The notes under the pieces: generated by a model
Told to the model about the DNA's origin: nothing
Database searches by the model: none
Seen by the model: only the letters and a program-made list of their open reading frames with translations
In this document: in pieces, positions 8,716-60,592 of the stretch
Layout of the letters: every line of letters starts with the position of its first letter
Position numbering within the stretch: position 1 is the stretch's first letter
Assembly (NCBI GenBank): GCA_020152595.1
Contig: JAIGNY010001798.1
Span: 452,501 to 516,500, forward strand
Direction: 5' to 3'
DNA from: Chiridota heheva
Lineage: Eukaryota; Echinodermata; Holothuroidea; Apodida; Chiridotidae
DNA: 64,000 nucleotides
Program-made: the position numbers and the translations under genes

Positions 8716-9228
8716 CATCAGCATTGTTGTTACTTTTGGTGCGTGATGATAAACTTGGCAGCTGACCAAGGAAATCGACCATCAGCATTGTTGTTACTTT
8801 TGGTGCGTGATGATAAACTTGGCAGCTGACCAAGGAAATCGACCATCAGCATTGTTGTTACTTTTGGTGCGTGATGATAAACTCTGGCAGCTGACCAAGG
8901 AAATCGACCATCAGCATTGTTGTTACTTTTGGTGCGTGATGATAAACTTGGCAGCTGACCAAGGAAATCGACCATCAGCATTGTTGTTACTTTTGGTGCG
9001 TGATGATAAACTTGGCAGCTGACCAAGGAAATCGACCATCAGCATTGTTGTTACTTTTGGTGCGTGATGATAAACTTGGCAGCTGACCAAGGAAATCGAC
9101 CATCAGCATTGTTGTTACTTTTGGTGCGTGATGATAAACTTGGCAGCTGACCAAGGAAATCGACCATCAGCATTGTTGTTACTTTTGGTGCGTGATGATA
9201 AACTTGGCAGCTGACCAAGGAAATCGAC
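8716..9228. repeat. Minisatellite, 64-bp unit, 8 near-identical copies
   Basis: Eight copies starting at 8716, 8780, 8844, 8909, 8973, 9037, 9101 and 9165. Each begins CATCAGCATTGTTGTTAC and ends CTGACCAAGGAAATCGAC. Only one 1-bp insertion (near 8884) breaks the 64-bp period, so the array looks very young or homogenised. Confidence 0.97.
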
Positions 9229-9567
9229 CACGCACTTCAACATCTGATAGTGGATAGACCCTTTTCTATATGAATGACGCTATTCTTTGCGCCACTATTA
9301 CATATTTCAGTTTTTCAGAGTCTGTTTTGTGTTACATTAATTGGATGATCTACCCTGAAAGGAAGTTCAAATTCAAAATTGATTCTTTAAACAACATGTG
9401 AAGAGGAGCAAGCACAACAAATGAAAGCTGTTGTGAACGATCTTAAGCAGGGCATGTTTTCATGGACACAAACATCCCTTTCTTTTTTTATCCACTAGTC
9501 AATTTTCACAAAAATGTGAGGAAAAGGAAAAATCAGAAGAAAAGATCAGCAAAGAAAGGATGGGAAT
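9229..9567. other. Unassigned sequence
   Basis: AT-rich DNA without open frames or repeats that I can support. Confidence 0.4.
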
Positions 9568-10400: not shown

Positions 10401-10914
10401 CCTTCCTACGCCTCTGCCTAACACTACAATGTACCAATATGGTTGGGAGTTAGTACAGGTTTAATATCAATATGATGGTGTCTTTAATTTTCTCCATTTC
10501 TTCGGCCACCCACTTTAAAAATTGCCCCGCAGTCCCTGTATGGGCGCAAAAATTGCTCCGCGGTCCCTGTATGGGCTATGAATGTGGCAGTACATAATTA
10601 CTTTTTTGCCTCCTGCGACAACAGTGCACAGAGTTTTCAAGCCTTGTTTCCAGATTTCATCATTGCTAAACACTATGCAATGGCTTCAACCAAGGTTTCG
10701 TATGTCATCACACATGCTTTGGGACCATATTTCCTAAAGCACAGGAACTTGCAAGGAAATATTTTACTATCCTTTTTGATGAAACAATGACAGCCAACAG
10801 GATAAAATAAATCTACTCCTGATTCACTTTTTGTCATCAAGGACATTGTCATTTCAAGTCTGGTATCTTAAGTTTATAATATTTGGACATGCATTTGCAG
10901 AGCAGGTTACAGAG

Positions 10915-11274
10915 GAGCTAATAAGCTTGCTTCTACAGGAGCTAATAAGCTTGCTTCTACAGGAGCTAATAAGCTTGCTTCTACAGGAGCTAATAAGCTT
11001 GCTTCTACAGGAGCTAATAAGCTTGCTTCTACAGGAGCTAATAAGCTTGCTTCTACAGGAGCTAATAAGCTTGCTTCTACAGGAGCTAATAAGCTTGCTT
11101 CTACAGGAGCTAATAAGTTTGCTTCTACAGGAGCTAATAAGCTTGCTTCTACAGGAGCTAATAAGCTTGCTTCTACAGGAGCTAATAAGCTTGCTTCTAC
11201 AGGAGCTAATAAGCTTGCTTCTACAGGAGCTAATAAGCTTGCTTCTACAGGAGCTAATAAGCTTGCTTCTACAA
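10915..11274. repeat. 24-bp minisatellite, 15 copies, inside the hAT-like relic
   Basis: Fifteen almost perfect copies of GAGCTAATAAGCTTGCTTCT plus ACAG. The period is a multiple of three, so the plus strand reads ELISLLLQ repeated and the minus strand is also open. The array starts exactly where the conserved transposase peptide FGHAFAEQVTEEL ends and appears to have amplified its last residues. Confidence 0.97.
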
Positions 11275-12239: not shown

Positions 12240-13225
12240 AAAGCAGCCTGATACACCCAGCAGAATTGATAACAGACAGGTACAAACCCAAGCAGCCTGA
12301 TACACCCAGCAGGATTGATAAATACTGTGCCACAACAGACTGGAACAAGCAGCCTGATACACCCAGCAGGATTGATAACCGACTGGTACAAACCCAAGCA
12401 GCCTGATACACCCAGCAGGATTGATAACGGACTGGTACAAACCCAAGCAGCCTGATACACCCAGCAGGATTGATAAATACTGTGCCACAACAGACTGGAA
12501 CAAGCAGCCTGATACACCCAGCAGGATTGATAACCGACTGGTACAAACCCAAGCAGCCTGATACACCCAGCAGGATTGATAACCGACTGGTACAAACCCA
12601 AGCAGCCTGATACACCCAGCAGGATTGATAACAGATTTGTACAAATCCAAGCAGCCAGATACACCCAGCAAGATTGATAAATACTGGGCCACAACAGACA
12701 GGTACAAGCAGCCTGATACACCAGCAGGATTGAAAACGGACAGGTACAAACCCAAGCAGCTTGATACACCCAGCAGGATTGATAACGGACTGGCACAAAG
12801 CCAAGCAACCTGATACACCTAGCAGGATTGATAACGGACTGATACAAATCCAAGCAACCTGATACACCCAGCAGGATTGATAACGGACTGGTACAATCCA
12901 AGCAGCCTGATACACCCAGCAGGATTGATAACGGACTGGTACAATCCAAGCAGCCTTAAACACCCAGCAGGATTGATAACGGACTGGTACAAACCAAGCA
13001 CCCTGATACATCCAGCAGGATTGATAACGGACTGGTACAAACCCAAGCAGCCTGATACACCCGGCAGGATTGATAAATACTGTGCCACAACAGGCTGGTA
13101 CAAACCTGATACACTCTGCAGGACTGATAAATACTGGGCCACAACAGAGTGGAACAAAGCTGATATACCCAGCAGGATTGACAACCGACTGGTACAAACC
13201 CAAGCAGCCTGATACACCCAGTAGG
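12240..13225. repeat. 49-bp minisatellite inside the hAT-like relic, copy 1
   Basis: About twenty copies of a 49-bp unit with core AGCAGCCTGATACACCCAGC, AGGATTGATAAC and GACTGGTACAAACCCA. Some units carry AAATACTGTGCCACAACAGA in place of the usual linker. It lies between the FPLNNKLLETL fragment and the dimerisation block. A second copy of the array is at 15138-15745. Confidence 0.95.
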
Positions 13226-13399
13226 ATTTATAAATACCCAGCTAAATTGCTGGAAATGTAAACTTAAACGGAAGAAAGGTAATTTGCGCACTTGTCTGAA
13301 GTTATAAAGTGTGCATTAAGTTTGGCACACAGCGATGCTGATACAGAAAGAAATCTCTCTGTCAACGAAAGAATGATATCATTACTAGAGCATCTCTGA

Positions 13400-14476
13400 C
13401 TGAGTAAATGGATTGCGTCTTACCAAGGATGGAGCAAAGAAATGGAATGCATCTTACCAAGGATGGAGCAAACGAATCGATTGCGTCTTACCAAGGATGG
13501 AGCGAACAATTGGATGGAGCGAACAAATAGATTGTGTCTTACGAAGGATGGAGCAAACCAAATGGATTGCGTCTTACCAAGGATGGAACAAACAAATGGA
13601 TTGCGTCTTACCAAGGATGGAGCAAACAAATGGATTGTGTATTACCAAGGATGGAGCAAACAAATGGATTGCGTCTTACGAAGGATGGTGCAAACCAAAT
13701 GGATTGCGTCTTACCAAGGATGGAACAAACAAATGGATTGCGTATTACCAAGGATGGAGCAAACAAATGGATTGCGTCTTACGAAGGATGGTGCAAATCA
13801 AATGGATTGCGTCTTACCAAGGATGGAACAAACAAATGGATTGCGTATTACCAAGGATGGTGCAAACCAAATGGATTGCGTCTTACCAAGGATGGAACAA
13901 ACAAATGGATTGCGTATTACCAAGGATGGAGCAAACAAATGGATTGCGTGTTACCAAGGATGGAGCAAACAAATGGATTGCGTCTTACGAAGGATGGTGC
14001 AAACCAAATGGATTGCGTCTTACCAAGGATGGAACAAACAAATGGATTGCGTATTACCAAGGATGGAGCAAACAAATGGATTGCGTCTTACGAAGGATGG
14101 TGCAAATCAAATGGATTGCGTCTTACCAAGGATGGAACAAACAAATGGATTGCGTATTACCAAGGATGGTGCAAACCAAATGGATTGCGTCTTACCAAGG
14201 ATGGAACAAACAAATGGATTGCGTATTACCAAGGATGGAGCAAACAAATGGATTGCGTGTTACCAAGGATGGAGCAAACAAATGGATTGCGTCTTACGAA
14301 GGATGGTGCAAACCAAATGGATTGCGTCTTACCAAGGATGGAGCAAACAAATGGATGGCGTCTTACCAAGGATGGAACAAACAAATTGATTGCGTATTAC
14401 CAAGGATGGAGCAAACAAATTGATTGTGTCTTACCAAGGATGGAGCAAACAAATGGATTGCGTCTTACCAAGGATG
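13400..14476. repeat. 34-bp satellite array, copy 1, with 309-bp higher-order period
   Basis: About 31 units of 34-35 bp with core AAATGGATTGCGTCTTACC and AAGGATGGAGCAAAC. The variant GCGTCTTACGAAGGATGGTG recurs at 13671, 13980 and 14289, which gives a 309-bp (nine-unit) higher-order period. The array is open in all three plus frames, producing overlapping 315-336-codon frames that are artefacts. Confidence 0.95.
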
Positions 14477-15123
14477 TAGTAGGGTCATTTTGAGGGATTC
14501 CGTGACCATTTCGTTCGGACCTTTGTTTCTTGGTGGATTTGTCTTCGGGAACTAATTTAAAAAAAATTAAGCTCCTATGAACCTCTCAAAAATGTTGGGA
14601 AAATTGTGTAAATTGGCAATTTTCAAAATGGCCGCCGTCCGCCATTTTGAAAAACATAAAAATTCATACCTATGGCCCCAAATAAAATAAAATGACAAAT
14701 GAGGTGTCATTTTCACATAGCTATGGCATTACAAATCCAATGGAACTCACCTTGTACAGTTTTGGGATCCCCAGAACCCCCAAATCCAAGATGGCTGCCA
14801 TCCGCTATTTTGAAAAACATAAAACCTCATATTTCTTGACCCAGATAAGCTAAGATGACAAATGAGGTATCATTTTTTGATAATTTTGACATTGCCAATC
14901 CATTTGAATGGTCAATGTACATTTTTGAAATCCCCATGACCTTTTAAACCCAAGATGGCCGCCATCCGCCATTTTGTAAAACAAGAAAACGTCATATTAT
15001 TTGACACCAGATGAGCTATAAATGACAAACGTAATGTCATTTTAACAAAAAAATGTACATTGTAACGATTCGAGTTCTCCATGGACTCCAAATCCAAAAT
15101 GGCCATGGGCCCACCTATGCCCC
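14477..15123. repeat. Orphan left terminal repeat of the 7.9-kb transposon
   Basis: Begins TAGTAGGGTCATTTTGAG directly after AAGGATG of the 34-bp array, exactly as the complete element does at 16569. It matches the left terminal repeat at 16569-17219 throughout, then stops at a palindrome at 15110-15137. No transposase follows. The shared insertion point indicates that it arose by duplication of an already occupied site rather than by a second insertion. Confidence 0.9.
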
Positions 15124-15137
15124 GGGGCATAGGTGGG
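15110..15137. repeat. Perfect 28-bp palindrome at a rearrangement junction
   Basis: CCCACCTATGCCCC at 15110-15123 is followed directly by its exact reverse complement at 15124-15137. The complete transposon contains only the first arm (about 17204-17217) and then diverges. The second arm leads straight into the duplicated 49-bp array. Confidence 0.95.
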
Positions 15138-15745
15138 CAACAGACTGGTAAAAGCAGCCTGATACACCCAGCAGGATTGATAACAGACTGAATAAACACA
15201 AGCAGCCTGATACACCCAGCAGGATTGATAATGGACTGGTACAAACCCAAGCAGCCTGATACACCCAGCAGGATTAATAATGGACTGGTACAAACCCAGG
15301 CAGCCTGATACACCCAGCAGGATTGATAACAGACAGGTACAAACCCAAGCAGCCTGATACACCCAGCAGGATTGATAACGGACTGGTATAAACCAAGCAG
15401 CCTAATACACCCAGCAGGATTGATAACGGACTGGTACAAACCCAAGCAGCCTGACACACCCGGCAGGATTGATAAATACTGTGCCACAACAGACTGGTAC
15501 AAGCAGCCTGATACACCCTGCAGGACTGATAATCGACTGGTACAAACCCAAGCAGCCTGATACACCCGGCAGGATTGATAAATACTGTGCCACAACAGGC
15601 TGGTACAAACCTGATACACTCTGCAGGACTGATAAATACTGGGCCACAACAGAGTGGAACAAAGCTGATATACCCAGCAGGATTGACAACCGACTGGTAC
15701 AAACTCAAGCAGCCTGATACACCCAGCAGGATTTATAAATACCCA
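15138..15745. repeat. 49-bp minisatellite, copy 2
   Basis: About twelve units of the same 49-bp repeat as 12240-13225, including the same rare units in the same order near the right edge (CTGCAGGACTGATAAATACT, then the AGAGTGGAACAAAGCTGATA unit). It is part of a tandem segmental duplication with an offset of about 2.5 kb. Confidence 0.93.
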
Positions 15746-15906
15746 GCTAAATTGCTGGAAATGTAAACTTAAACGGGAGAAAGGTAATTTGCGCACTTGT
15801 CTGAAGTTATAGAGTGTGCATTAAGTTTGGCACACAGCGATGCTGATACAGAAAGAAATCTCTCTGTCAACAAAAGAATGATATCATTACTAGAGCATCT
15901 CTGACT
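15746..15906 (+). pseudogene. hAT-like C-terminal block, duplicate copy
   Basis: Near-identical second copy of 13241-13402, encoding the same dimerisation-like block with a few substitutions (for example AACGGGAGAAAGG against AACGGAAGAAAGG). It lacks the rest of the transposase and exists only because of the segmental duplication. Confidence 0.75.
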
Positions 15907-16568
15907 GAGTAAATGGATTGTGTCTTACCAAGGATGGAGCAAACGAATCGATTGCGTCTTACCAAGGATGGAGCGAACAATTGGATGGAGCGAACAAATG
16001 GATTGCGTCTTACGAAGGATGGAGCAAACCAAATGGATTGCGTCTTACCAAGGATGGAACAAACAAATGGATTGCGTCTTACCAAGGATGGAGCAAACAA
16101 ATGGATTGCGTATTACCAAGGATGGAACAAACAAATGGATTGCGTCTTACGAAGGATGGTGCAAACCAAATGGATTGCGTCTTACCAAGGATGGAACAAA
16201 CAAATGGATTGCATCTTACCAAGGATGGAGCAAACAAATGGATTGCGTGTTACCAAAGATGGAACAAACAAATGGATTGCATCTTACCAAGGATGGAGCA
16301 AACAAATGGATTGCGTATTACCAAGGATGGAGCAAACAAATGGATGGCCTCTTACCAAGGATGGAGCAAACAAATGGATTGCGTGTTACCAAGGATGGAA
16401 CAAACAAATGGATTGCATCTTACCAAGGATGGAGCAAACAAATGGATTGCGTCTTACCAAGGATGGAGCAAACAAATGGATTGCGTCTTACGAAGGATGG
16501 CGCAAACCAAATTGATTGTGTCTTACCAAGGATGGAGCAAACAAATGGATTGCGTCTTACCAAGGATG
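15907..16568. repeat. 34-bp satellite array, copy 2
   Basis: About 19 units of the 34-bp satellite, some twelve fewer than in copy 1. It is interrupted at 16568 by the 7.9-kb transposon and resumes for two units at 24429-24485. Confidence 0.93.
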
Positions 16569-17219
16569 TAGTAGGGTCATTTTGAGGGATTCCGTGACCA
16601 TTTCGTTTGGACCTTTGTTTCTTGGTGGATTTGTCTTCGGGAACTATTTAAAAAAAAAATTAGCTCCTATGAACCTCTCAAAAATGTTGGGAAAATTGTG
16701 TAAAATGGCAATTTTCAAAATGGCCACCGTCCGCCATTTTAAAAAACATAAAAATTCATACCTATGGCCCCAAATAAAATAAAATGACAAATGAGGTGTC
16801 ATTTTCACATAACTATGGCATTACAAATCCAATGGAACTCACCTTGTACAGTTTTGGGATCCCCAGAACCCCCAAATCCAAGATGGCTGCCATCCGCTAT
16901 TTTGAAAAACATAAAACCTCATATTTCTTGACCCAGATAAGCTAAGATGACAAATGATGTGTCATTTTTTGATAATTTTGATATTGCCAATCCAATAGAA
17001 TGGTCAATGTACATTTTTGAAATCCCCATGACCTTTTAAACCCAAGATAGCCGCCATCCGCCATTATGTAAAACAAGAAAACGTCATATTATTTGACACC
17101 AGATGAGCTATAAATGACAAACGTAATGTCATTTTAACAACAAAATGTACATTGTAACGATTCAAATTCCCCATGGACTCCAAATCCAAAATAGCCATGG
17201 GCCCACCTATGCCCCGGGG
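16569..17219. repeat. Left terminal inverted repeat of the transposon
   Basis: Matches the reverse complement of 23757-24428, strongly for the outer ~540 bp and more weakly further in. It contains sub-repeats spaced 163-164 bp apart (near 16720, 16883 and 17047) built around a GGC-GCC-ATCCGCCATTTT motif, with a degenerate fourth near 17191. These may be transposase-binding sites. Confidence 0.9.
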
Positions 17220-18860
17220 TACGGTGCCCCCAGGATTGGCCCTAGCGACTTCAAGCAAGGGGGGATTTATTCATTTCAACCGTCAATAACATATACCATT
17301 GCTTGAAGTAACAATGATAAAGCATTGGGAAAGTCCCTTATTCCCCTATCCCCCAATAGGGCCAACCCAGCCCCTGACCCCCTCTCGGCGAGCCTGCCTG
17401 TACATAACACTTAGACCTACACATAATATCCCTTCCATAAGCCAAAAATCGGTCTCAAGTGCTTGTCCTATCAATGCTTGCACTTTATTAAGGCCCTTAT
17501 TGTTATCCATCCATACAAATTACTTATTGGACACCATGTTGAATTACATGCTGTACAACTTCTTAAGCACATGCAATTGGATGAAAGTTTTTAAGCCATT
17601 CAGCAAAAGCAGAAATAATGCCATGTGAAGGTGGGTTTCATTTTTATTTCATTTTCAGTATAATATAGACATTTTAAGGAACACATAGGCAGTAAATATA
17701 TTTCTTAAGGGTGAAAATTTATCAATAACAGCATATTTTGATATAGAAAGAAAGTTGTTGTGGCCCACAATGTATCAAGTTGTTGTTTTGCCAGGTCCCT
17801 GTACCCATTGTACATGTTGTAATGTATGTGTGCAAACAACAGTGTTTGTGTGATATCAGAAGGATTTGCTTCTTTCATTGTAATAAACAAAATTAATTTG
17901 AAATATTCACTGTCTTTGGGAGCTTTGGAAAGCTAAGGTACTGACCATTATCATTGAAAATAATACATATGACACCAATTAGAACATGCCCTTCGACTAA
18001 GTTCATTTTAGAATCTTTAAAACTACGGAAGCCTGTAAAAGACGTAAGTTATGATATCAAAATTATATAGGCGACATGTGTTTTTTTAATTTAATTTTTA
18101 TTTGCAGAGGGGGTGGTCAACATGTGTGTTTTAGGTTATATTCATGTTTCCACATTATGTTCATACATTGTCATATATGATTTAATGTCCTTCTGCTGAG
18201 GTGGTGGTACGGGGGTGAGAGGGGTTGGGAAGGGCATGCATATCCAACATTTTTAGGGATAACTATTTATTGCTCATTTAATTTATACCTAGAGTAATTA
18301 CAGGGAGTGTTTTACTAGTTAAGCTCACCAGAGTTTTTCAAAGCACTTCCTTGCACAACATCATTTGTTTTGTATTGTATTGTATATATATCATATTATG
18401 TTACTTCTGTTTTGCTTCAAACTTCTACCATTTCTTCTTATCTGTTGTACATATGTTAATGTTGTGAAGAAACAAATAAATCAATTAAATGAAATGAATG
18501 AAATATATGTTAATGGGGAATACTATTTTATTGAAGGAGCTAGAATGGCGTGTAACATTGCCCTTGAATACTTTAAAATACATGTAAGTAAATTGTAAAC
18601 AACTGAGCTCATGACTGATAAAACCTTCTGATTGATTGACTGATATAAAAGTAGTTTATCACCATCTATTGATTAATGAAAATGTTAGTCAAGGAGTTCT
18701 TAAAAATTAGATATGGCCACAAAAATAGCAAACTATTGAATTTTCCTCGACAAGTTTTCTGCCGTGGCTATCAATATGCTTGATTAATAATTTAACAAGA
18801 TACAATATCATTTTGATAGGGTTGTGACAAAAAAAATCCTGTTTTAATTGCAGAGTCGAG
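17220..18860. other. Transposon interior upstream of the coding region
   Basis: About 1.6 kb between the left terminal repeat and the first recognisable coding sequence. It holds an inverted pair (CTTCAAGCAAGG near 17250, CCATTGCTTGAAGT near 17298) and AT-rich DNA. No gene can be supported. A promoter for the transposase would be expected here, but I cannot point to one. Confidence 0.4.
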
Positions 18861-18890
18861 CATCTGGTGGAAGAAGCTGATTTCAAAAGA

Positions 18891-19597
18891 ATGGCAAGTA
18901 GAAAAGATGGTAAAGGGATACAAGATGAAGATGAATGCATTTTACTCTGTGGAAAGCCTTGTTACGAAGATGACAGTTTGGATAACATTTCACCCGAGAA
19001 GTGGGAGTCCATTCAGAGTAAATCTTTACAATGGATAGGACTTGACAAGTTCCAGGAAGTACATTGAAGTGTGGATTGGGAAAAAGGGCCAGATGGCCAC
19101 TTCATGCATAACTCTTGTTACACAACATTATCAAGTAAGCTCAACTTCACCCAAGCTGTAAAACGCAAAGAAAAATTGGAAGAAAGTGAACATCTTCAAA
19201 GAGAGGAGATATCGACTGAGCAATGTCCCAAACCCGAAGGTGGAAGATGTATAACACTCCGCTCTAGCATGGGTGCAATTCACAATAAATCTCTATGTGT
19301 TTGGTGCATGAAAGCAAATTGCACGTGGAAAACAACTTTTACTCTTGTCAACAGTAGATGCATGGACTAAATTCAAGTTACATACCATCCAACTGGAAGA
19401 CGTGAATATGAGAGAGAGACTGAACACCTTGATTGCATCCATCCCAGACAGCCATACAGCATTTGGTGTGGAAATCCGCTACCATCGTATGTGCTGGCGC
19501 AATTACGTAAGCCACCCTGAGCAGAAGCAATTTACAGGTGAAAACATTCAACACTTACAGCATGTCAACCTTCGAGAGGCACAAATTCTCTTTTTTT
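18891..19597 (+). pseudogene. Transposase N-terminal Cys/His region (broken)
   Basis: Start chosen at ATG 18891; the open frame extends slightly upstream without an ATG. The reading shows two Cys/His modules: CILLCGKPC with HFMHNSCY, and CVWCMKANC with YHRMCW. They look like zinc-binding modules and would be a DNA-binding region in a transposase. An in-frame TGA at 19065-19067 splits the first module. A frameshift lies between about 19300 and 19350. A second frameshift falls at a run of nine T (about 19588-19597), after which the sequence DHEIRTLQGLLQDYKRIISN joins the central domain. These lesions, in an otherwise clean reading, mark a recently dead copy. Confidence 0.75.
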
Positions 19598-22320
19598 TTA
19601 TCATGTCCGTCAAGTCATCTTCAACGATCATGAAATTCGTACACTACAAGGTTTGCTGCAAGATTATAAACGCATCATCTCAAATCATGGACATAACCCA
19701 ACAGTGAAATCAAGCTTCTTAAAGGAAATTCTTCTCAAAGAATTTGGGAATGACATTGGATTTCATAAACGCATTCAGAAGAATGCAAGTGAAGTGGTAT
19801 ATGATACAACAGCAGCAGGTTCATATGTCGAGGCAATCCTATCTTCATTTGGAATCAGCAGAGATCAGTTGGTGAAGAATGTAGCAGCTGGACTCAAAGA
19901 GCAGGTTCTCAAGACAAATACGATTCCCTGGCCCCCATACATACATGAGTTGGAGGAAGAAGAGGACCTGAGTGAGATTCTGATGAAACTGATTACATGG
20001 TTGAAATACCCAGATAAATCCACAATTGATAATAGTCCGTCCGTCTGGTCCATTGCTTCTATCCTCACAAGCTACATTACTGGAAAACGCACTGCATTTG
20101 AGACAAATCTAACCGTCATGATGCATGGCATGACCAAGAGTAGGGAGGTTATTGATATAATGCACAAGGATGGTCTGGGCATCAGTTATAACGATGTGCT
20201 TATGCTGCGAGATTTATGGGTCGTCAATGACCTCAAACGCTCATCTGATTGCCCTTTTGAAGTAGCTAAGGGTAAGCCTGCCATTGCTATAGTGGACAAC
20301 GATAACTTCAAGAGTGACACACTGACTGGTGCTGGCCAATCACACCGCACTAATGTCATGTATGTGCAACCACAATCATTTGATTCAGAACTTTCTTCCA
20401 TGAACCAAGGAGAAAGACCAGTTGCTGATGCCAAATTAGCTTCTTCTCTGTCTGTAACTCTGAAAGAATTAGGAGATGAGATGCAGAAACTTACCCCATA
20501 CAAAACAGTTAAGCGTGGAGAGCCACCAGTCAGGAAACAGCCAGTTTTTCAGAGCAAACCCCTCAAAACGTTTGCTCAGAGAACGCGTAGAGTGATACAT
20601 GCCCTGGCCAGAGCTCAAGATGATCAAACCAGACCACATCCAGAAACACATACTGTGCCTGGGTTTGCTGGGTTTCAGGCAAACCTATCACAACCAGATG
20701 ACAGAAGTCGTGCGATATACCACATGACATATCCCAACCCACCTAACAAGACAATCCTCTGTGATGTATTGAATAAACTTCAAAAATCAATCAAAGAAAA
20801 ACAGATGCCATTTGCCATTATTGTTGGGGATCAACCGATATACGTGCTTTTGCTAGAATTAAAGAGTGAGAACCCAAATTTGTTCAGCAAGATCTTACCA
20901 TTTATGGGACCATTCCACATTCAAATGTCGTTCATGAATGCTATGTACAAGAGGTTTAAGGGTTCTGGGATCTCAGATGTGTTGGTGGCAGCAGGAGTAA
21001 TCGCAGATAGTTTTGTGGACCAAGCCCTTCGTGGAAAACATGTCAAGCGTGGAGTTCACTGCCTGCGGCTATCTTACGAGACTCTGGTCCACCATGCCTT
21101 AGACAAGAGATTAGATGGTGCTCCTTTATCTAAAGAGGTAAAGGCCTCCATTGCTAAGCTCCATCATTCGAACAACGCACAGGAACTTTCTGATGCACAT
21201 ACAGAGTTGGAGAGCAATGCTGAGTTGAAAGACCTTGTTGACACTCTCTTCAAGGATTTTGAGGGTGCCTCTCTTGCAGAATACTGGATATTCTTTATGG
21301 AAATGGTGGAAATTCTGACACAAAACATCCATGCACTTAGATCAAGTAATTGGACTGAATTTAAATCCTCGCTAAAACTGATGCTTCCGTGGTTGCAGAT
21401 ATACAACAATGACAAGTACGGAAGGCATCTTCCCGATTTTACCGCAGTACTTGATTCTCTTCCTAAAGATCAGGCTGCATTCATGGAGAGCGGCATGTTT
21501 GCACAATTAATGACTGGAAAACCATATTCACGCGTGGCTCTAGACATATGGATAGAATCAACAATGAATAAGGGCTCGAAGCTGAAGTCTGGTTGGCTGG
21601 TCATTCTCAACAATGAAAAGCAGCTCCTGTCAAATACTCGCAATGTGAATAATGTAAATCGGGTCAGAGCAAGTGTCCATCGCCATGCTGAGCTCAACAA
21701 ACAAGGCAAAGTGGAGCATGCTGATAGCTCATCAAGTAAAATAAAGAAGGACGAACAGGCAGTACATGATATAAGTGCATGACTGTCAGAATTTCAGTGT
21801 GATCCATTTGACCATACAAACCAGACTCTTCAATCGTTACAATCTGGAATCCCAGCTTCGACAATTCTTGCTACTGACTTCAAATCAGCAAAGGAGGATG
21901 GAACAAGGAAATTAGAAGAGTTTATAAAAGAAAAAGTGTATTTTAAGTCCAAGCCTCTCAACAACAGAGTTCCCCGCAGCAAGCGACAAAACTTTTCAAA
22001 GCAAGAATTGCAGAGAATCACTGTTGAGAACGTGAAAGGAAAAACTGAGGAAATGGAAAATAAAGCCTTATCCTCTGTTCTTGCGTTGGTGGAGACAAGC
22101 AGGGCCCTTCAACTTGAAGATGTGCTGCAGCACCAGGTTACAGCTGAGTGTCTGGCTATCTTCAATGCTAATGGAACTATGCGTAAGACACAAAAGAGCA
22201 AGCTGCAGCAAAAATTAACAATGACTGTCATTCCAGAGCCTGATGTTTATACATCTATTATTGACATGGGTCTAATCTGGCGCCTGACCACTCCTACCAC
22301 AGAAGACAGAGAGAAGGGAC
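19598..22320 (+). pseudogene. Transposase central domain, candidate D-D-E catalytic core (broken)
   Basis: A 709-codon frame from 19653 to a TGA at 21780-21782, with the same frame open beyond the stop to about 22320. I do not know a named domain here, but the protein belongs to a large family widespread in invertebrate genomes. Candidate acidic catalytic residues, numbered in the 709-codon frame: Asp215/Asp217 in AIAIVDNDNF after a hydrophobic strand, Asp393 in FAIIVGDQPIYVLLLEL after another, and Glu635 in a helix-like LDIWIESTMNK. Other strong segments are KILPFMGPFHIQMSFMNAMY and SGISDVLVAAGVIADSFVDQ. The stretch after the TGA (DPFDHTNQTLQSLQSGIPAS) looks conserved, so the stop is probably a mutation, perhaps CGA to TGA. 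The catalytic assignment is inference. Confidence 0.7.
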
Positions 22321-23463
22321 AAATATACTTGGGGAGATTATGCACAAAAGCTAGTGCGCTCTGTTCTAGCAAGACACAAGAATGCAGAGCGACTTATTTG
22401 TGTTAACGATTCATATGATCAGAACCACTCAATCAAAGACAGTCAGAAAATTCTGCGCCAAAAGCATTTGCCAATTAGAAATGTTTACATGAAGTCAAAG
22501 GACAAATTTCCGTCTAATAAGGAATTCCATGCTCTTCTGAGTAAACCTGAGAACAAGCTTTGTCTTCAAGCATTCATTCAAACTGCATTCCAGAACTCAG
22601 CAAAGATCACTAGCACTGAGATCATCTACGGTGTAGTGGGTAGTACTACTAAGAACCTGACAACAGACAAGATTGTATCAGCACTTTCATGCGATCATGC
22701 AGAGGCACACACTGCCATGTTCACCATATATAGTGTGCTGCGGTCAGAGGGATATACAAAAGCTGTTGTTCTTGACACCAAGGACACGGGCAACTATGTA
22801 CAAGCAGCATATGTTGCTCAAATGACTTCAGGACCAACGTTGTTGAAACGCAAACACAAACTGATCTCTGCCCGGTGTTTATGCAATGAGGCAATGGCAG
22901 CATCCATCATCCAACTGCATGTACCCACTGGATGTGACCACAACTCTGGCTTTTATGGAGCAAGCAAGAGACTCATCGCAGATCGCCTGGAAAAGTCTCA
23001 AGAGGCGCACAACCTGTTAGCAGCATGTGGAACTTGTCTCCCAGTGACACAAGGGGTCATAACTGATTTGGAGCGGTTTGTCATTAGATACGTCTATTGT
23101 GATACCAAAAGCAAGACTCTTGCGGATGTTCGAGCTGCAAAGTGGAGAGCTCAGAAGAAGAAAAGCACTGTTCGACTTGTGTCTGACTCAGACAGTCTCC
23201 GGCCACACTTGGAGAGAGCAAATTATCTTGCATATTTGCAAAGACATTACACACTCCAAAGTCATCCCTCTCCGATTGGCCATGGATGGTATCTTGTAAA
23301 TGGCATGTGTTTGCCAATCCGATCTACTCAGCCCCCACTTCCACCATCCATATCCCTACCTTCAGCACCACAGACAGCTGCAAACCATGATAATACTAGT
23401 GAAAGTGATGGCAGTGATCTTGACACCTCCTGCAGTGAAACAAGTGAAGACAGCGATGCTTGA
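22321..23463 (+). pseudogene. C-terminal FEN/XPG-like (PIN) nuclease domain of the transposase
   Basis: Reached from the central domain by a frameshift at about 22318-22330 and then open to a stop at 23461-23463 (369 codons counted from ATG 22354). Sequence order matches a FEN1/XPG-type nuclease: an acidic segment near VNDSYDQN, then an EAH motif (117-119) where EAD or EAE is usual, then VVLDTKDTGNY (138-148) where DxD is usual, then TGCDHNSGFYG (192-202), the GxD-type motif. A conserved tail with HPSPIGHGWYLVNG follows, and an acidic Ser/Asp-rich C-terminus. Two of the expected acidic metal ligands are therefore His119 and Gly146, suggesting loss of nuclease activity in this copy. The family is inferred from motif order. 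Confidence 0.65.
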
Positions 23464-23756
23464 ATAGTATGAAGAGACTGCATAGCCATGGCGGAATATA
23501 GTGTCTGGATGACAACTTATTAGATCAAGATATTAAAATGTCATGTGTCATGAAACTGTAAAATAAACAGTGGGCTAATAACATTAAAATTGATATCAAA
23601 ACCCTTTCAATATCCACCTTAAGTGCCATACATATACTGTAAGGTTTAACATTTTTATGGTGGCCATCGCATATCGCATTAATTATAATTTCAACAGAAT
23701 TACATTGCAAGAATTGTTATAAAAAACACCTGATTAGTCAACTTCTGGGGATTTCA

Positions 23757-24428
23757 GATATTCAAAATGTCGGACGGTGGCCATCTTGGATTTAAGGGTT
23801 GTGATAATCCCTTCAACTCTTCAGTATTCATTCAAAAAAGATGTTTATGATATAATTAAAATGGTACCTAACTTGACAGTCTTTAATAGCTCATCTGGTG
23901 TCAAATATATGATGTTTTTTTGTTTTTTTCAAAATGGCGGATGGCGGCCATCTTGGGTTTAAAGGTCATGGGGATTTCAAAAATGTACATTGACCATTCT
24001 ATTGCATAGGCAATGTCAAAATTATCAGAAAACGACACCTCATTTGTCATCTTAGCTTATCTGGGTCAAGAAATATGAGGTTTTATGTTTTTCAAAATGG
24101 CGGATGGCAGCCATCTTGGATTTGGGGGTTCTGGGGATCCCAAAACTGTACAAGGTGAGTTCCATTGGATTTGTAATGCCATAGTTATGTGAAAATGATA
24201 CCTCATTTGTCATTTTATTTTATTTGGGGCCATAGGTATGAATTTGTATGTTTTTCAAAATGGCGGACGGTGGCCATTTTGAAAATTGCCAATTTACACA
24301 ATATTCTCAACATTTTTGAGAGGTTCATAGGAGCTAATTTTTTTTTTAATTAGTTCCCGAGGACAAATTCACCAAGAAACAAAGGTCCGAACGAAATGGT
24401 CACGGAATCCCTCAAAATGACCCTACTA
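23757..24428. repeat. Right terminal inverted repeat of the transposon
   Basis: Reverse complement of the left repeat. Four sub-repeats are visible, each with AAAATG(G/T)CGGA(C/T)GG then GGCCATCTTGG or close variants, near 23765, 23933, 24099 and 24261. It ends at CCCTACTA (24428). About 290 bp separate it from the end of the coding region. Confidence 0.9.
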
Positions 24429-24485
24429 ATGGAGCAAACAAATGGATTGCGTCTTACCAAGGATGGAGCATACAAATGGATTGGA
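24429..24485. repeat. 34-bp satellite, right flank of the transposon
   Basis: ATGGAGCAAACAAATGGATT and one more unit of the same satellite found at 15907-16568. It supplies the right-hand target duplication (ATG at 24429-24431) and shows where the array continued before insertion. Confidence 0.92.
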
Positions 24486-34432: not shown

Positions 34433-36238
34433 TTTAGAACAATGCACATCATTCATGAATACTGTTGATGCATATCTTTCATGAACTCTGTTGATGCACA
34501 TCTTTCATAAACACTGTTATTGCACATCTTTCATGAACACTGTTAATGCACATCTTTCATGAACAGTGTTAATGCACATCTTTCATGAACACTGTTGATG
34601 CACATCTTTCATGAACACTGTTAATGCACATCTTTCATGAACACTGTTAATGCACATCTTTCATGAACACTGTTCTGCACATCTTTCATGAACACTGTTA
34701 ATGCACATCTTTCATAAACACTGTTAATGCACATCTTTTATGAACACTGTTCTGCACATCTTTCATGAACACTGTTAATGCACATCTTTCATGAAGACTG
34801 TTGATGCACATCTTTCATGAACACTGTTGATGCACATCTTTCATAAACACTGTTGATGCACATCTTTCATGAACACTGTTAATGCACATCTTTCATAAAC
34901 ACTGTTAATGCACATCTTTTATGAACACTGTTCTGCACATCTTTCATGAACACTGTTAATGCACATCTTTCATGAAGACTGTTGATGCACATCTTTCATG
35001 AACACTGTTAATGCACATCACACTGTTAATGCACATCATTCATGAACACTGTTCATGCACATCTTTCATGAACACTGTTAATGCACATCTTTCATGAACA
35101 CTGTTGATGCACATCTTTCATGAACACTGTTAATGCACATCTTTCATGAACACTGTTAATGCACATCTTTCATGAACACTGTTGATGCACATCTTTCATG
35201 AACACTGTTAATGCACATCTTTTATGAACACTGTTCTGCACATCTTTCATGAACACTGTTAATGCACATCTTTCATGAACATTGTTGATGCACATCTTTC
35301 ATGAACACTGTTAATGCACATCTTTCATGAACACTGTTAATGCACATCTTTCATGAACACTGTTAATGCACATCTTTCATGAACACTGTTGATGCACATC
35401 TTTCATGAACACTGTTAATGCACATCTTTTATGAACACTGTTCTGCACATCTTTCATGAACACTGTTAATGCACATCTTTCATGAACACTGTTGATGCAC
35501 ATCTTTCATGAACACTGTTAATGCACATCTTTTATGAACACTGTTCTGCACATCTTTCATGAACACTGTTAATGCACATCTTTCATGAACATTGTTGATG
35601 CACATCTTTCATGAACACTGTTAATGCACATCTTTCATGAACACTGTTAATGCACATCTTTCATGAACACTGTTGATGCACATCTTTCATGAACACTGTT
35701 AATGCACATCATTCATGAACACTGTTAATGCACATCTTTCATAAACACTGTTAATGCACATCTTTCATGAACACTGTTAATGCACATCATTCATGAACAC
35801 TGTTGATGCACATCTTTCATGAACACTGTTAATGCACATCTTTTATGAACACTGTTAATGCACATCACACTGTTAATGCACATCATTCATGAACACTGTT
35901 CATGCACATCTTTCATGAACACTGTTAATGCACATCTTTCATGAACACTGTTAATGCACATCATTCATGAACACTGTTAATGCACATCTTTCATAAACAC
36001 TGTTAATGCACATCTTTCATGAACACTGTTCTGCACATCTTTCATGAACACTGTTGATGCACATTTTCATGTACACTGGTAATGCACATCTTTCATGAAC
36101 ACTGTTGATGCACATCACTCATGAGCACGGTTGATGCACATCTTTCATGAACACTGTTGATGCACATCTTTCATGAACACTGTTAATGTGCATCTTTCAT
36201 GAACACTGGTAATGCACATTTTTCATAAACACTGTTAA
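34433..36238. repeat. Satellite array, 26-bp unit (family L), left part
   Basis: About 70 copies of AATGCACATCTTTCATGAAC followed by ACTGTT, with a 24-bp variant lacking AA (CTGTTCTGCACATC). It is interrupted at a TTAA by a piggyBac-like element and resumes at 38895. Confidence 0.97.
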
Positions 36239-38194: not shown

Positions 38195-38894
38195 ATGAAC
38201 TCCATGTGGAATGAACAGAAGTAAGTGTTCAATAGATAATCAGCATAGTCTATCAACATAAAAGTAGCTGTGAAGCTTGTAATGGCTGAAATTGGGTCAG
38301 AAATAAACAAAAAACACTTTTGTGCATAATAGATGAGGTAAATGACCTAATTTGCATATCATTTGCATAATTTCTTATTTTATTTTTTGCAAATGATGAT
38401 GTAAACATCTTGTTTTTCTGCATTCTATTAGTTTTGGACATCATAGAAGAGGAAAATGCATTTTTTTGGAAAATTTAGTGCCATACACTATTAGATAGAT
38501 TATTCACAGAATCGGGGGATAATTTTTAGGTCAAAATGTACCAAATTTTTCATATTTGCGTCATTTTTTTTCTTCTTAATCCTAAAAATCCATAAATAGT
38601 ATCAAATGAAAGGTCTTTCCAAGGACAATTCAGAAATTCTATCCATATTTTTTTGCTATTTAGCCACAAGGCACAAGCGTGTCATAAAGATAGAATGTTT
38701 GGAGACCTAATATGCTAATTTAATGACCTAATTTGCATATTTGAGTTCGGAAATATGCACATTTTTGGAAAGTTCAACATGTTAGCTTTCATAAAAGTCG
38801 AAGTTGTTTTGGTACAAATGGAACAGAAAGTGCTGAAAAAATCCTCTTTCCAAAAATAGCTTATTCTATTTTTGGAACCTTGGGAGAGTAAGGG

Positions 38895-40080
38895 TTAATG
38901 CACATCTTTCATAAACACTGTTAATGCACATCTTTCATGAACACTGTTAATGCACATTTTTCATGAACACTGTTGATGCACATCTTTCATGAACACTGTT
39001 AATGCACATCTTTTATGAACACTGTTAATGCACATCTTTCATGAACACTGTTAATGCACATTTTTCATGAACACTGTTAATGCACATCTTTCATAAACAC
39101 TGTTAATGCACATCTTTCATAAACACTGTTAATGCACATCTTTCATAAACACTGTTAATGCACATCTTTCATGAACACTGTTAATGCACATTTTTCATGA
39201 ACACTGTTGATGCACATCTTTCATGAACACTGTTAATGCACATCTTTTATGAACACTGTTAATGCACATCTTTCATGAACACTGTTAATGCACATTTTTC
39301 ATGAACACTGTTAATGCACATCTTTCATAAACACTGTTAATGCACATCTTTCATAAACACTGTTAATGCACATCTTTCATGAACACTGTTCTGCACATCT
39401 TTCATGAACACTGTTAATACACATCTTTCATGAACACTGTTAATGCACATCTTTCATGAACACTGTTAATGCACATCTTTCATGAACACTGTTAATACAC
39501 ATCTTTCATGAACACTGTTAATGCACATCTTTCATGAACACTGTTAATACACATCTTTCATGAACACTGGTAATGCACATCTTTCATGAACACTGGTAAT
39601 GCACATCTTTTATGAACACTGTTAATGCACATCTTTCATGAACACTGTTAATGCACATCTTTCATGAACACTGTTGATGCACATCTTTCATAAACACTGT
39701 TAATGCACATCTTTCATGAACACTGTTAATGCACATCTTTCATGAACACTGTTAATGCACATCTTTCATGAACACTGTTAATACACATCTTTCATGAACA
39801 CTGTTCTGCACATCTTTCATGAACACTGTTATTGCACAACTTCCATGAACACTGTTAATGCACATCTTTCATGAACACTGTTAATGCACATCTTTCATGA
39901 ACACTGGTAATGCACATCTTTCATGAACACTGTTAGTGCACATCTTTCATGAACACTGTTCTGCACATCTTTCATGAACACTGTTATTGCACAACTTCCA
40001 TGAACACTGTTAATGCACATCTTTCATGAACACTGTTAATGCACATCTTTCATGAACACTGTTAATGCACATCTTTCATA
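38895..40080. repeat. Satellite array, 26-bp unit (family L), right part
   Basis: Continuation of the 34433-36238 array beyond the piggyBac-like insertion, about 45 copies with the same unit and the same 24-bp variant. Confidence 0.97.
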
Positions 40081-41200: not shown

Positions 41201-41559
41201 AAATGCGTACAAACTTCAGAAAATAATCTTGGGAGGATACGAACAACATAAAGGGGTGAATTTGGTGTCATTTTCATTTGTACTTCTTTTTACCATGAAA
41301 GCCCTTTCTAATGTTCCATGTCACCTCCAGTATGAAAAGCTTCTCTATCGTCCCCAGTATCTTCATAATTGTTACATAATCAAATGCTCAATTAGCATAA
41401 AGACAATAAATATGTAATAGAATTACCTAATATATAAAGCCACCAAATTATCTAGCATGAATTCTAACACTTTTCAAACAAAAACATGGAAAATTTTAAA
41501 ATGGGCGATGATCTTCTTAAAAAGTTTTTTTTTAAAGAAAGGAAAACCAACCTCCAACT

Positions 41560-44500
41560 CCTTTCTATACTTCCATGAATGAAAACCAACCTCAAACTCC
41601 TTTCTATACTTCCATGAATGAAAACCAACCTCAAACTCCTTTCTATACTTCCATGAATTAAAACCAACCTCAAACTCCTTTCAATACTTCCATAAATGAA
41701 AACCAACCTCAAACTCCTTTCTATACTTCCATAAATAAAAACCAACCTCAAACTCCTTTCTATACTTCCATGAATGAAAACCAGCCTCAAACTCCTTTCT
41801 ATACTTCCATGAATGAAAACCAACCTCAAACTCCTTTCTATACTTCCATAAATGAAAACCAACCTCAAACTCCTTTCAATACTTCCATGAATGAAAACCA
41901 CCCTCAAACTCCTTTCTATACTTCCATAAATAAAAACCAACCTCAAACTCCTTTCTATACTTCCATAAATAAAAACCAACCTCAAACTCCTTTCTATACT
42001 TCCATGAATGAAAACCAACCTCAAACTCCTTTCTATACTTCCATAAATAAAAACCAACCTCAAACTCCTTTCTATACTTCCATGAATGAAAACCAACCTC
42101 AAACTCCTTTCTATACTTCCATAAATAAAAACCAACCTCAAACTCCTTTCTATACTTCCATGAATGAAAACCAACCTCAAACTCCTTTCTATACTTCCAT
42201 AAATAAAAACCAACCTCAAACTCCTTTCTATACTTCCATGAATGAAACCAACCTCAAACTCCTTTCTATACTTCCATAAATAAAAACCAACCTCAAACTC
42301 CTTTCTATACTTCCATGAATGAAAACCAACCTCAAACTCCTTTCTATACTTCCATAAATAAAAACCAACCTCAAACTCCTTTCTATAATTCCATGAATGA
42401 AAACCAACCTCAAACTCCTTTCTATACTTCCATGAATGAAAACCAACCTCAAACTCCTTTCTATACTTCCATAAATAAAAACCAACCTCAAACTCCTTTC
42501 TATACTTCCATGAATGAAAACCAACCTCAAACTCCTTTCTATACTTCCATGAATGAAAACCAACCTCAAACTCCTTTCTATACTTCCATAAATAAAAACC
42601 AATCTCAAACTCCTTTCTATACTTCCATGAATGAAAACCAACCTCAAACTCCTTTCTATACCTCCATAAATGAAAACCAACCTCAAACTCCTTTCTATAC
42701 TTCCATAAATAAAAACCAATCTCAAACTCCTTTCTATACTTCCATGAATGAAAACCAACCTCAAACTCCTTTCTATACTTCCATAAATAAAAACCAACTT
42801 CAAACTCCTTTCTATACTTCCATAAATAAAAACCAACCTCAAACTCCTTTCTATACTTCCATAAATAAAAACCAATCTCAAACTCCTTTCTATACTTCCA
42901 TGAATGAAAACCAACCTCAAACTCCTTTCTATACTTCCATGAATGAAAACCAACCTCAAACTCCTTTCTATACTTCCATGAATGAAAACCAGCCTCAAAC
43001 TCCTTTCTATACTTCCATAAATAAAAACCAACCTCAAACTCCTTTCTATACTTCCATGAATGAAAACCAACCTCAAACTCCTTTCTATACTTCCATAAAT
43101 AAAAACCAACCTCAAACTCCTTTCTATACTTCCATGAATGAAAACCAACCTCAAACTCCTTTCTATACTTCCATAAATAAAAACCAACCTCAAACTCCTT
43201 TCTATACTTCCATGAATGAAAACCAACCTCAAACTCCTTTCTATACTTCCATAAATAAAAACCAACCTCAAACTCCTTTCTATACTTCCATGAATGAAAA
43301 CCAACCTCAAACTCCTTTCTATACTTCCATGAATAAAAACCAATCTCAAACTCCTTTCTATACTTCCATGAATGAAAACTAACCTCAAACTCCTTTCTAT
43401 ACTTTCATAAATGAAAACCAACCTCAAACTCCTTTCTATACTTCCATGAATGAAAACCAACCTCAAACTCCTTTCTATACCTCCATAAATGAAAACCAAC
43501 TTCAAACTCCTTTCTATACTTCCATAAATAAAAACCAACCTCAAACTCCTTTCAATACTTCCATGAATGAAGACCAGCCTCAAACTCCTTTCTATACTTC
43601 CATAAATGAAAACCAGCCTCAAACTCCTTTCTATACTTCCATAAATGAAAACCAGCCTCAAACTCCTTTCTATACTTCCATAAATGAAAACCAACCTCAA
43701 ACTCCTTTCTATACTTCCATAAATGAAAACCAGCCTCAAACTCCTTTCTATACTTCCATAAATGAAAACCAGCCTCAAACTCCTTTCTATACTTCCATGA
43801 ATGAAAACCAACCTCAAACTCCTTTCTATACTTCCATGAATGAAAACCAACCTCAAACTCCTTTCTATACTTCCATGAATGAAAACCAACCTCAAACTCC
43901 TTTCTATACTTCCATGAATGAAAACCAACCTCAAACTCCTTTCTATACCTCCATAAATGAAAACCCCAACTTCAAACTCCTTTCTATACTTCCATAAATA
44001 AAAACCAACCTCAAACTCCTTTCAATACTTCCATGAATGAAAACCACCCTCAAACTCCTTTCTATACTTCCATAAATGAAAACCAACCTCAAACTCCTTT
44101 CAATACTTCCATAAATGAAAACCAACCTCAAACTCCTTTCTATACTTCCATAAATAAAAACCAACCTCAAACTCCTTTCAATACTTCCATGAATGAAAAC
44201 CAGCCTCAAACTCCTTTCTATACTTCCATAAATGAAAACCAGCCTCAAACTCCTTTCTATACTTCCATAAATGAAAACCAGCCTCAAACTCCTTTCTATA
44301 CTTCCATAAATGAAAACCAACCTCAAACTCCTTTCTATACTTCCATAAATGAAAACCAGCCTCAAACTCCTTTCTATACTTCCATAAATGAAAACCAGCC
44401 TCAAACTCCTTTCTATACTTCCATGAATGAAAACCAACCTCAAACTCCTTTCTATACTTCCATGAATGAAAACCAACCTCAAACTCCTTTCTATACTTCC

Positions 44501-45290
44501 ATGAATGAAAACCAACCTCAAACTCCTTTCTATACTTCCATGAATGAAAACCAACCTCAAACTCCTTTCTATACCTCCATAAATGAAAACCCCAACTTCA
44601 AACTCCTTTCTATACTTCCATAAATAAAAACCAACCTCAAACTCCTTTCAATACTTCCATGAATGAAAACCACCCTCAAACTCCTTTCTATACTTCCATA
44701 AATGAAAACCAACCTCAAACTCCTTTCAATACTTCCATAAATGAAAACCAACCTCAAACTCCTTTCTATACTTCCATGAATGAAAACCAACCTCAAACTC
44801 CTTTCTATACTTCCATGAATGAAAACCAACCTCAAACTCCTTTCTATACTTCCATGAATGAAAACCAACCTCAAACTCCTTTCTATACCTCCATAAATGA
44901 AAACCAACTTCAAACTCCTTTCTATACTTCCATAAATAAAAACCAACCTCAAACTCCTTTCAATACTTTCATAAATGAAAACCAACCTCAAACTCCTTTC
45001 TATACTTCCATGAATGAAAACCAACCTCAAACTCCTTTCTATACTTCCATAAATGAAAACCAACCTTAAACTCCTTTTAATACTTCCATTAATAAAAACC
45101 AACCTCAAACTCCTTTCTATACTTTCATAAATGAAAACCAACCTCAAACTCCTTTCTATACTTCCATGAATGAAAACCAACCTCAAACTCCTTTCTATAC
45201 TTCCATGAATGAAAACCAACCTCAAACTCCTTTCTATACTTCCATGAATGAAAACCAACCTCAAACTCCTTTCTATACTTCCATGAATTT
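41560..45290. repeat. Satellite array, 39-bp unit, about 95 copies, in TRAPPC12 intron
   Basis: Unit ATGAATGAAAACCAACCTCA then AACTCCTTTCTATACTTCC. The period is a multiple of three, so both strands are open over long distances (MNENQPQTPFYTS on plus, IERSLRLVFIHGS on minus). Frames up to 568 codons result, which I regard as non-coding. A ~630-bp block (about 43440-44030) is repeated at about 44065-44660 with the same variants, including the CCCCAACTTC unit. Confidence 0.97.
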
Positions 45291-53782: not shown

Positions 53783-53876
53783 CAATGACCTGATTCTAAT
53801 GCACTTCTAACCGACCTTAAAAACGTAGTTACCAGCCCAGCCCTAACCTCCATAATACCTCTAACATCCCTCACTT
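53783..53876. repeat. Left arm of a ~90-bp inverted repeat
   Basis: TGACCTGATTCTAATGCACT through AACATCCCTCACTT. It pairs with 58461-58551 on the opposite strand with few mismatches. Confidence 0.9.
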
Positions 53877-58460: not shown

Positions 58461-58551
58461 AGTGAGGGATGTTAGAGGTATTATGGAGGTCAGGGTTGGG
58501 CTGGTAACTATGTTTTTAAGGTCGGTTAGAAGTGTTTTAGAATCAGGTCAT
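58461..58551. repeat. Right arm of a ~90-bp inverted repeat
   Basis: AAGTGAGGGATGTTAGAGGT through TTTTAGAATCAGGTCA, the inverted partner of 53783-53876. Confidence 0.9.
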
Positions 58552-59296: not shown

Positions 59297-59721
59297 CTGA
59301 AAGTAGACAAAATCCTGTCAATGGCAACCATTTGTAAAACTGACAAGAATATAATCATTTTTGAATAAGATAGACAGAACCACCTTCCTCTTGTAAAAAA
59401 ATGTAAAGTACATATATATAGGATATTACAACTGACTTGCATTTGCATAAAGTGCTGTTGAATATTCAAAAGCAAATTCATTTTGAATTATCTAACCAAT
59501 CACATGACATCACACAACCCTATAAAAGGAAAGGCATTTTTTGTAAGGTTGTGTACAGTTGTCACGAAAGTTTATATAAAAGCACAGACCCCTAGCTTTG
59601 CTGTTTTACAGGGGCAGCCTGCCCTGCCCCTCAGTGGGGTCGCCCTGTCCCCTGGGGGTCCACCCTGCCCCTCATGAGAAAAAAAAATGTTTTTATAGAT
59701 TTTCTTTTTTCACTTAATAAT

Positions 59722-59973
59722 CTTAATTAACCTCATAAAAAAAAAACCTTACGTGGATACAGAAAACAGAATGATAGCATAGTAAGCAATTGTCCTGTTT
59801 GGCTCATGAATGTTCCTTATCAATCAGAAGAGTTTTATTCTGAGGTATGATTATTGCTAAAATCCCAGAGCTTCTTCACCATGGGATTGAGCCTTAAGGG
59901 GGCCCCTGGACTCCATGCCGAAAAGACGTAGCGCTAAGCGTGCGCATTAATGTGCCCCTCAACAAGTCTAGCA
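59722..59973. repeat. 252-bp direct repeat, copy 1
   Basis: From CTTAATTAACCTCATAAA to CAACAAGTCTAGCA. Nearly identical to 60593-60845 (one visible difference: CGAAAAG against CAAAAAAG), so the duplication is recent. Confidence 0.95.
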
Positions 59974-60435: not shown

Positions 60436-60592
60436 ATATGTTTCAGTGCATGGGTTTGTTTTTAAACTTAATGGCATGAATAAAGAGGAGATAGTTACTC
60501 TTGCTTTTCAATTGAAAGTATGTAATGTAAGCTTCATCACTATACTTTTGGCATGCAGTAGGTGTACTGCGATCCAGAGTTACGATTTTTTT

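Follow-up and report, generated by a model that had tools for sequence, protein, structure and literature searches.

A dead copy of a large DNA transposon, most likely AcademX, with repeated paired motifs at its ends in Chiridota heheva

Introduction

The question raised by the locus described here is what kind of mobile element inserted itself into a 34-bp satellite, and what the repeats that fill its ends might do. The element lies at positions 16569-24428 of a stretch of 64,000 nucleotides from the holothuroid Chiridota heheva (assembly GCA_020152595.1, contig JAIGNY010001798.1, positions 452,501 to 516,500 of the forward strand), which is called the window below. The answer that we favour, with confidence that is reasonable rather than high, is that a large DNA transposon of the cut-and-paste kind, most likely AcademX, has left a dead copy here, with a decayed gene built around a DUF6589 core and with repeated motifs at both ends. 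Most of this dead transposon is ordinary and its boundaries are excellent; its end architecture is uncommon and can be tested at the bench. Base-exact ends set in a satellite also provide a clean measurement of the target duplication for a poorly sampled transposon group.

Element ends and target-site duplication

The element begins with TAGTAGGG, which within the window is seen only at 14477 and 16569, and it finishes with CCCTACTA, seen there only at 24421. The length of the target duplication was read from the flanks, by joining 34 bases from the left to 30 bases from the right, removing an overlap and scoring the product against the consensus of the 34-bp satellite. When a 3-bp overlap (ATG) is removed, the joined flanks match the satellite at 64 of 64 positions, and the other 12 overlaps (0-2 and 4-12 bp) reach at most 47 of 64. 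On the right, about 1.6 satellite units (~55 bp) are kept before other DNA begins. The two ends are inverted with respect to each other, over 474 nucleotides at 96% identity without gaps and over 550 bp at 94.9% with them. These features mark a DNA transposon whose two ends are complete and whose insertion duplicated 3 bp of target. The original prediction had proposed exact ends opening on TAGTAGGG and closing on CCCTACTA, an ATG duplication inside the satellite and long terminal repeats, all of which the analysis bears out.

Paired YY1-type motifs in the element ends

A 26-bp motif opens each subterminal unit, of which there are three on the left and four on the right, 163-167 bp apart (Table 1). 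Its best form, CAAGATGGCCGCCATCCGCCATTTTG, is a near-palindrome of two inverted YY1-type sites. Specifically, CAAGATGGC in the motif is the reverse complement of GCCATCTTG, and CGCCATTTT fits the YY1 consensus CGCCATNTT. According to passages of one study, GCCATCTTG is both a YY1 consensus and the TR5 element of lancelet ProtoRAG ends, and CGCCATNTT is also a published YY1 consensus (PMC7481187). With up to 4 mismatches allowed, the window holds 10 occurrences of the motif, all of them in the element or in its partial copy at 14477. Raising the limit to 7 mismatches yields nothing new except matches on the opposite strand at two of the 10 sites, and three simulated 64-kb sequences hold no occurrence. 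Both the repeated motif and the copy (14477-15127) are additions to the original prediction, which mentions neither.

The core GCCAT[CT]TT is found 11 times in the 1,511 bp of the ends, with ten of these cores inside motifs, against an expectation of 0.24 and a maximum of 3 in 500 dinucleotide shuffles, although such counts are not independent because the units, and the two ends, copy each other. Six further cores lie in the copied fragment and four elsewhere in the window. Both GCCATCTTG and CGCCATNTT occur four times in the ends (one left, three right in each case), and a YY1-type site is therefore present, as a sequence match, in both ends of the element.

Known systems suggest what such sites might do. 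The end element GCCATCTTG of ProtoRAG is described, in the passages cited, as bound by YY1 with effects on transcription and recombination, and lancelet YY1 represses transcription, helps precise joining and attenuates transposition (PMC7481187); changes in TR5 lower ProtoRAG recombination, as part of a second report states (PMC8289069). The present element shares with ProtoRAG the GCCATCTTG YY1 site in both ends. However, the duplications of ProtoRAG are 5 bp long, its genes are RAG1L/RAG2L, and its ends are short and have a single element of this type, whereas here the sites are paired and inverted, three to four pairs stand at each end and the terminal sequence is unrelated. The tandem promoter monomers of mouse L1 Tf, which need their own YY1 sites and act together in the account excerpted from PMC11602158, resemble our units in being tandem and in carrying YY1 sites, but they form a retrotransposon promoter rather than transposon ends. 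Among the papers listed by our literature search, 12 of 104, none pairs Academ with YY1, which is not a claim that no such paper exists. By analogy, the 26-bp motifs may be docking sites for YY1 or for the transposase, and the end units may have served as promoter modules and bridging sites, as transposase sites, or as both.

It is quite possible, without being probable, that the motif was the transposase's own binding site and resembles YY1 sites by chance. A near-palindrome is what would be expected of a site for a dimer, and transposase-binding subterminal repeats are common in DNA transposons. Against this stands the match of both half-sites to published YY1 consensus sequences, GCCATCTTG and CGCCATNTT, as given in passages of PMC7481187, and double use of the motif by transposase and host factor would still be compatible with that match.

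A broken gene and the placement of the element

The gene pieces span ~18867-23463 and are interrupted by two in-frame stops (19065-19067 and 21780-21782) and by three frame changes. The first of these lies at about 19340-19370, the second close to a nine-T run (19591-19599) and the third at about 22310-22318. The frame change at the nine-T run could be a sequencing error. The transposase gene is dead. Because of these stops and frame changes, the ~1,500-residue transposase that had been predicted is a span and not an intact protein, and the word 'complete', which had been applied to the whole element, suits its ends but not its gene.

Residues 369-685 of the core match the Pfam family DUF6589 (PF20231) with an E-value of 8.4e-9 and 35 bits, the cut-off being 27. 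No other transposase family was found in Pfam at E-values up to 1 when six gene pieces were scanned, and the matches below cut-off were to OST48_MD (0.014, or 0.017 in a second scan), DUF1048 (0.073), ADK_lid (0.2) and APOBEC_C (0.42). No Pfam zinc finger matches the N-terminal Cys/His pieces. The single NCBIfam match, to RecG helicase, is far under its cut-off (E 0.0045; 15.5 bits against 711), and sequence searches of the PDB gave one chance match for the core (E 0.083) and none for the C-terminal piece. Candidate catalytic residues in the core, D215 (20295), D393 (20829) and E635 (21555), were picked by eye, guided by what we take to be the motifs of related invertebrate proteins.

We file the element as probably AcademX, the duplication length being the one AcademX feature that could be confirmed. 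It resembles AcademX in being a large single-gene element, and it has Cys/His-rich N-terminal pieces and candidate DDE-like motifs, which are features of Academ, as is an XPG-like nuclease domain. Target duplications are given as 3-4 bp for AcademX and 9-10 bp for AcademH in passages of PMC10045372, and the 3 bp observed here, from one event, agree with the former. The element departs from AcademX in its long subterminal arrays with YY1-type pairs and in its broken gene, and its 7.86 kb compare with a mean of 5,565 bp for curated bivalve Academ elements in the portion of PMC10294476 cited.

Several other assignments were considered and set aside. The duplication is 3 bp rather than the 9-10 bp of AcademH, a helicase-bearing group, and the pieces scanned have no helicase match in Pfam. 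CACTA/EnSpm elements have CACTA/CACTG termini, and the termini here are TAGTAGGG. PIF/Harbinger elements combine a TWA target with a DDE_Tnp_4-type core; here the duplicate is ATG and Pfam gives no DDE_Tnp_4-type match. The coral piggyBac element AmiPB3 is described, in part of its literature, as also carrying TAGTAGGG, but it makes TTAA duplications, whereas the duplicate here is ATG.

That the element belongs to a different DDE superfamily with duplications of ~3 bp (CACTA/EnSpm, PIF/Harbinger or Zator), or to an unnamed DUF6589 group, strikes us as unlikely. This alternative draws its strength from the fact that the Academ filing leans on duplication length and on motifs regarded as typical, and from the link between DUF6589 and Academ, which is unproved because no paper in the literature searched names DUF6589. 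It is opposed by the Pfam results for the pieces scanned, in which no other transposase family appears up to an E-value of 1, and by TAGTAGGG ends and an ATG duplicate where the family rules call for CACTA and TWA. The Academ label of the original prediction is plausible, with the duplication length and the want of a rival Pfam transposase family in the pieces scanned in its favour; for the nuclease that had been named as its other basis, the evidence is mixed.

That nuclease is the FEN/XPG-like domain ascribed to the C-terminal piece. The Academ literature, in the portions consulted, speaks of a nuclease, and our literature search for Academ together with XPG as whole words found nothing. By eye, TGCDHNSGFYGASKR in the C-terminal piece resembles the LGSDY...GIGPKR stretch of FEN1, and hhalign pairs the TGCD stretch of the piece with the LGSDY stretch of FEN. 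With a profile built from eight FEN/XPG pieces, the C-terminal piece reaches 5.7 bits, the top of a set that includes 300 shuffles. In a second set of 3,002 sequences (the real one, its reverse and 3,000 shuffles), 1,515 were reported and the real sequence was the 6th highest. The profile score is a weak hint of a nuclease.

A number of results limit the AcademX placement and leave the nuclease a candidate domain. Five of the 3,000 shuffles outscore the real piece, and the alignment (profile positions 42-78) falls between the catalytic motifs and not on them, so that the top rank among 300 shuffles was rejected as proof. The hhalign score of 14.0 is exceeded by at least 8 of 100 shuffles, the best of which reaches 21.2, and Pfam has no match to the C-terminal piece at E-values up to 10. 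In single-sequence AlphaFold2 predictions no RNase H fold was seen in the core, because the confidence scores (pLDDT) of both predictions, 36.3 for the core and 34.9 for the C-terminal piece, are too low. Finally, relatives were sought in collections that are, by description, viral, bacterial, archaeal, phage and plasmid records and not animal genomes. Protein searches of viral contigs and genome contigs found none there; a degenerate motif gave 7 loci, of which tblastn showed none to be a relative (best E 0.15); the end sequence gave 0 matches; and tblastn with the core had no match in phages and plasmids at an E-value of 0.01. Fourteen control genomes and a virus record gave no match to the DUF6589 profile, and 4 of the 14 controls, all archaea, matched the XPG_I profile. 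With no relatives in these non-animal collections, both the superfamily and the conservation of the motif rest on one locus.

Tandem duplication of the left end

The second occurrence of the 5' end, at 14477, is a 5'-only copy that matches just the first 651 bp of the element, with 21 substitutions (3.2%). An independent second insertion was rejected, since the left flank and a variant of the satellite unit are common to both sites: the flanks at 14477 and 16569 are identical for 61 bases, and the variant sits 60 bp upstream of each left end (14417 and 16509) and nowhere else in the window. The spacer between a 49-bp array and the 34-bp array is likewise present twice (~13238-13405 and ~15740-15907), with three differences in the alignment. 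A head-to-tail tandem duplication has copied the 49-bp array, the spacer, the 34-bp array and the left end of the element, giving the blocks 12241-15127 and 15152-17219. Because the duplication carried the left end along with the flanking arrays, the insertion is older than the duplication, and because the left end was copied in this later event, the 3-bp duplication length rests on one insertion. Over 505 aligned columns, private changes number 8 in the full left end, 8 in the copy and 12 in the right end.

Beyond element position 651 the copy runs into 11 nucleotides that are the reverse complement of the bases just upstream. This foldback makes a 30-nucleotide palindrome at the join (15109-15138), after which the 49-bp array follows; it looks like the product of either a repair foldback or an assembly error. 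We consider it rather improbable that the whole tandem duplicate at 12.2-15.1 kb is an assembly artefact in which a second haplotype was placed beside the first. In its favour are the palindrome at the join and a difference of 3.2% over 651 bp, which fits the heterozygosity of marine invertebrates. However, the copy ends inside the element and meets the 49-bp array through a foldback instead of a plain overlap.

Conservation of the motif within the units

The motif and the remainder of each unit were compared between units. In pairwise comparisons of right units 1-3 the motif is identical at 22-25 of 26 positions, against 67-73% in the remainder, and in the units of the copied fragment the figures are 22-24 of 26 against 70-72% elsewhere in the unit. 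Right unit 4, compared with units 1-3, keeps the motif at 22-24 of 26 positions with 57-67% in the remainder. In shuffled controls remainders average 61-63%, and the motif of unit 4 never exceeds 17 of 26 (2,000 shuffles each). The remainder of unit 4 is at shuffle level, with 136, 29 and 183 of 200 shuffles reaching the observed identity to units 1, 2 and 3, and so, with 33 of 200, is the remainder of right unit 1 when set against that of unit 3. Since the repeats duplicate one another, unit 4 is a cleaner sign than the core counts.

Besides the dependence of those counts, other observations weaken the case for the motif. The contrast is smaller among left units 1-3, where the motif is identical at 20, 20 and 22 of 26 positions against 66-75%. 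Left unit 3 lacks both cores, though its duplicated copy retains them, and one of the two is retained in left unit 2, as it is in right unit 4. The best-conserved 26-bp windows of the right end start 4-5 bp inside the motif, and the conserved block thus extends a few bases past it. It is quite improbable that the 163-bp units are no more than inert copies in tandem, with the motif just their slowly changing part: units 1-3 are indeed tandem copies, 66-75% identical outside the motif, and right units 1-2 and 2-3 each beat 199 of 200 shuffles there, but right unit 4 retains the motif (22-24 of 26) while its remainder is no more alike than shuffles.

A possible history of the element

An intact element would have encoded a single protein with a Cys/His-rich, DNA-binding N-terminal part and a DDE-type core. 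This protein would have excised the element and inserted it at staggered breaks in the target, which would leave the 3-bp duplication. Less surely, the 26-bp motifs, three on the left and four on the right, may have been docking sites for host YY1, as in ProtoRAG, and the docked motifs might have acted as promoter modules, drawn the two ends together, or both. The insertion was later caught in the tandem duplication by which its first 651 bp were copied; the gene decayed either before or after that event.

A bolder proposal, which we put forward as speculation with little expectation that it will prove correct, is that a lineage unrelated to RAG independently built its ends from tandem pairs of inverted YY1 sites, such that one host factor drives the transposase gene and bridges the ends before cutting. 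If this were true, the capture of YY1 would be a recurrent route by which animal DNA transposons build a synapse. Should the paired motifs dock YY1, animal transposons would have converged on the YY1 dependence known from ProtoRAG, with relevance to how RAG-like recombination is steered.

Table 1. Features of the element and of its duplicated left end, in window coordinates
Feature	Position	Strand	Basis or remark
Whole element	16569..24428	+	7,860 bp; ends and flanks
Left terminal inverted repeat, 550 bp	16569..17118	+	94.9% to 23879-24428 reversed; the ~163-bp subterminal repeat is present here as units 1 and 2 and a portion of unit 3
Right terminal inverted repeat	23879..24428	-	Units 1-3 begin within it
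Target-site duplicate ATG, left copy	16566..16568	+	Joined flanks match 64/64 when 3 bp are removed
Target-site duplicate ATG, right copy	24429..24431	+	Flank reconstruction
Paired motif, left unit 1	16716..16741	+	4 mismatches; both cores kept
Paired motif, left unit 2	16879..16904	+	2 mismatches; one core kept
Paired motif, left unit 3	17043..17068	+	2 mismatches; both YY1-type cores mutated
Paired motif, right unit 1	24256..24281	-	3 mismatches; both cores kept
Paired motif, right unit 2	24093..24118	-	1 mismatch; both cores kept
Paired motif, right unit 3	23930..23955	-	0 mismatches; both cores kept
Paired motif, right unit 4, outside the inverted repeat	23763..23788	-	3 mismatches; one core kept
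N-terminal gene pieces with Cys/His clusters CILLCGKPC, HNSCY, CVWCMKANC, HRMCW	18867..19644	+	Seen in translation; interrupted by one stop and two frame changes
Transposase core, an open frame of 709 residues	19653..21782	+	Residues 369-685 match DUF6589
Linker, frame unchanged after the stop at 21780-21782	21783..22316	+	Translation
C-terminal piece, called FEN/XPG-like in the original prediction	22318..23463	+	Frame shifted relative to the preceding piece
AATAAA, possible poly(A) signal	23562..23567	+	~100 bp past the last stop of the gene
Partial copy of the element (left 651 bp), duplicated in tandem together with its flank	14477..15127	+	96.8% to 16569-17219
Spacer and 34-bp array adjoining the full element	15740..16568	+	Duplicate of about 13238-14476; spacer alignment and array listing

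Other repeats in the window

The remainder of the window is also rich in repeats. A direct repeat of ~253 bp (59721-59973 and 60592-60845, 871-872 bp apart) differs at one site, with a one-base gap, and looks recent. An inverted repeat of 92 nucleotides, 95% complementary, has its arms 4.6 kb apart at 53785-53876 and 58460-58551 and is perhaps what remains of another element. Two arrays about 2.7 kb apart (34441-36238 and 38894-40079) have a 26-bp satellite unit in common. Arrays of 39-bp and 33-bp units, at 41538-45288 and 45998-51629, contain open frames of up to 1,538 residues, but these very long frames are not evidence of genes because the unit lengths are multiples of three. Arrays of 64-bp and 24-bp units, at 8716-9230 and 10913-11273, are 99% identical between copies and are probably recent expansions.

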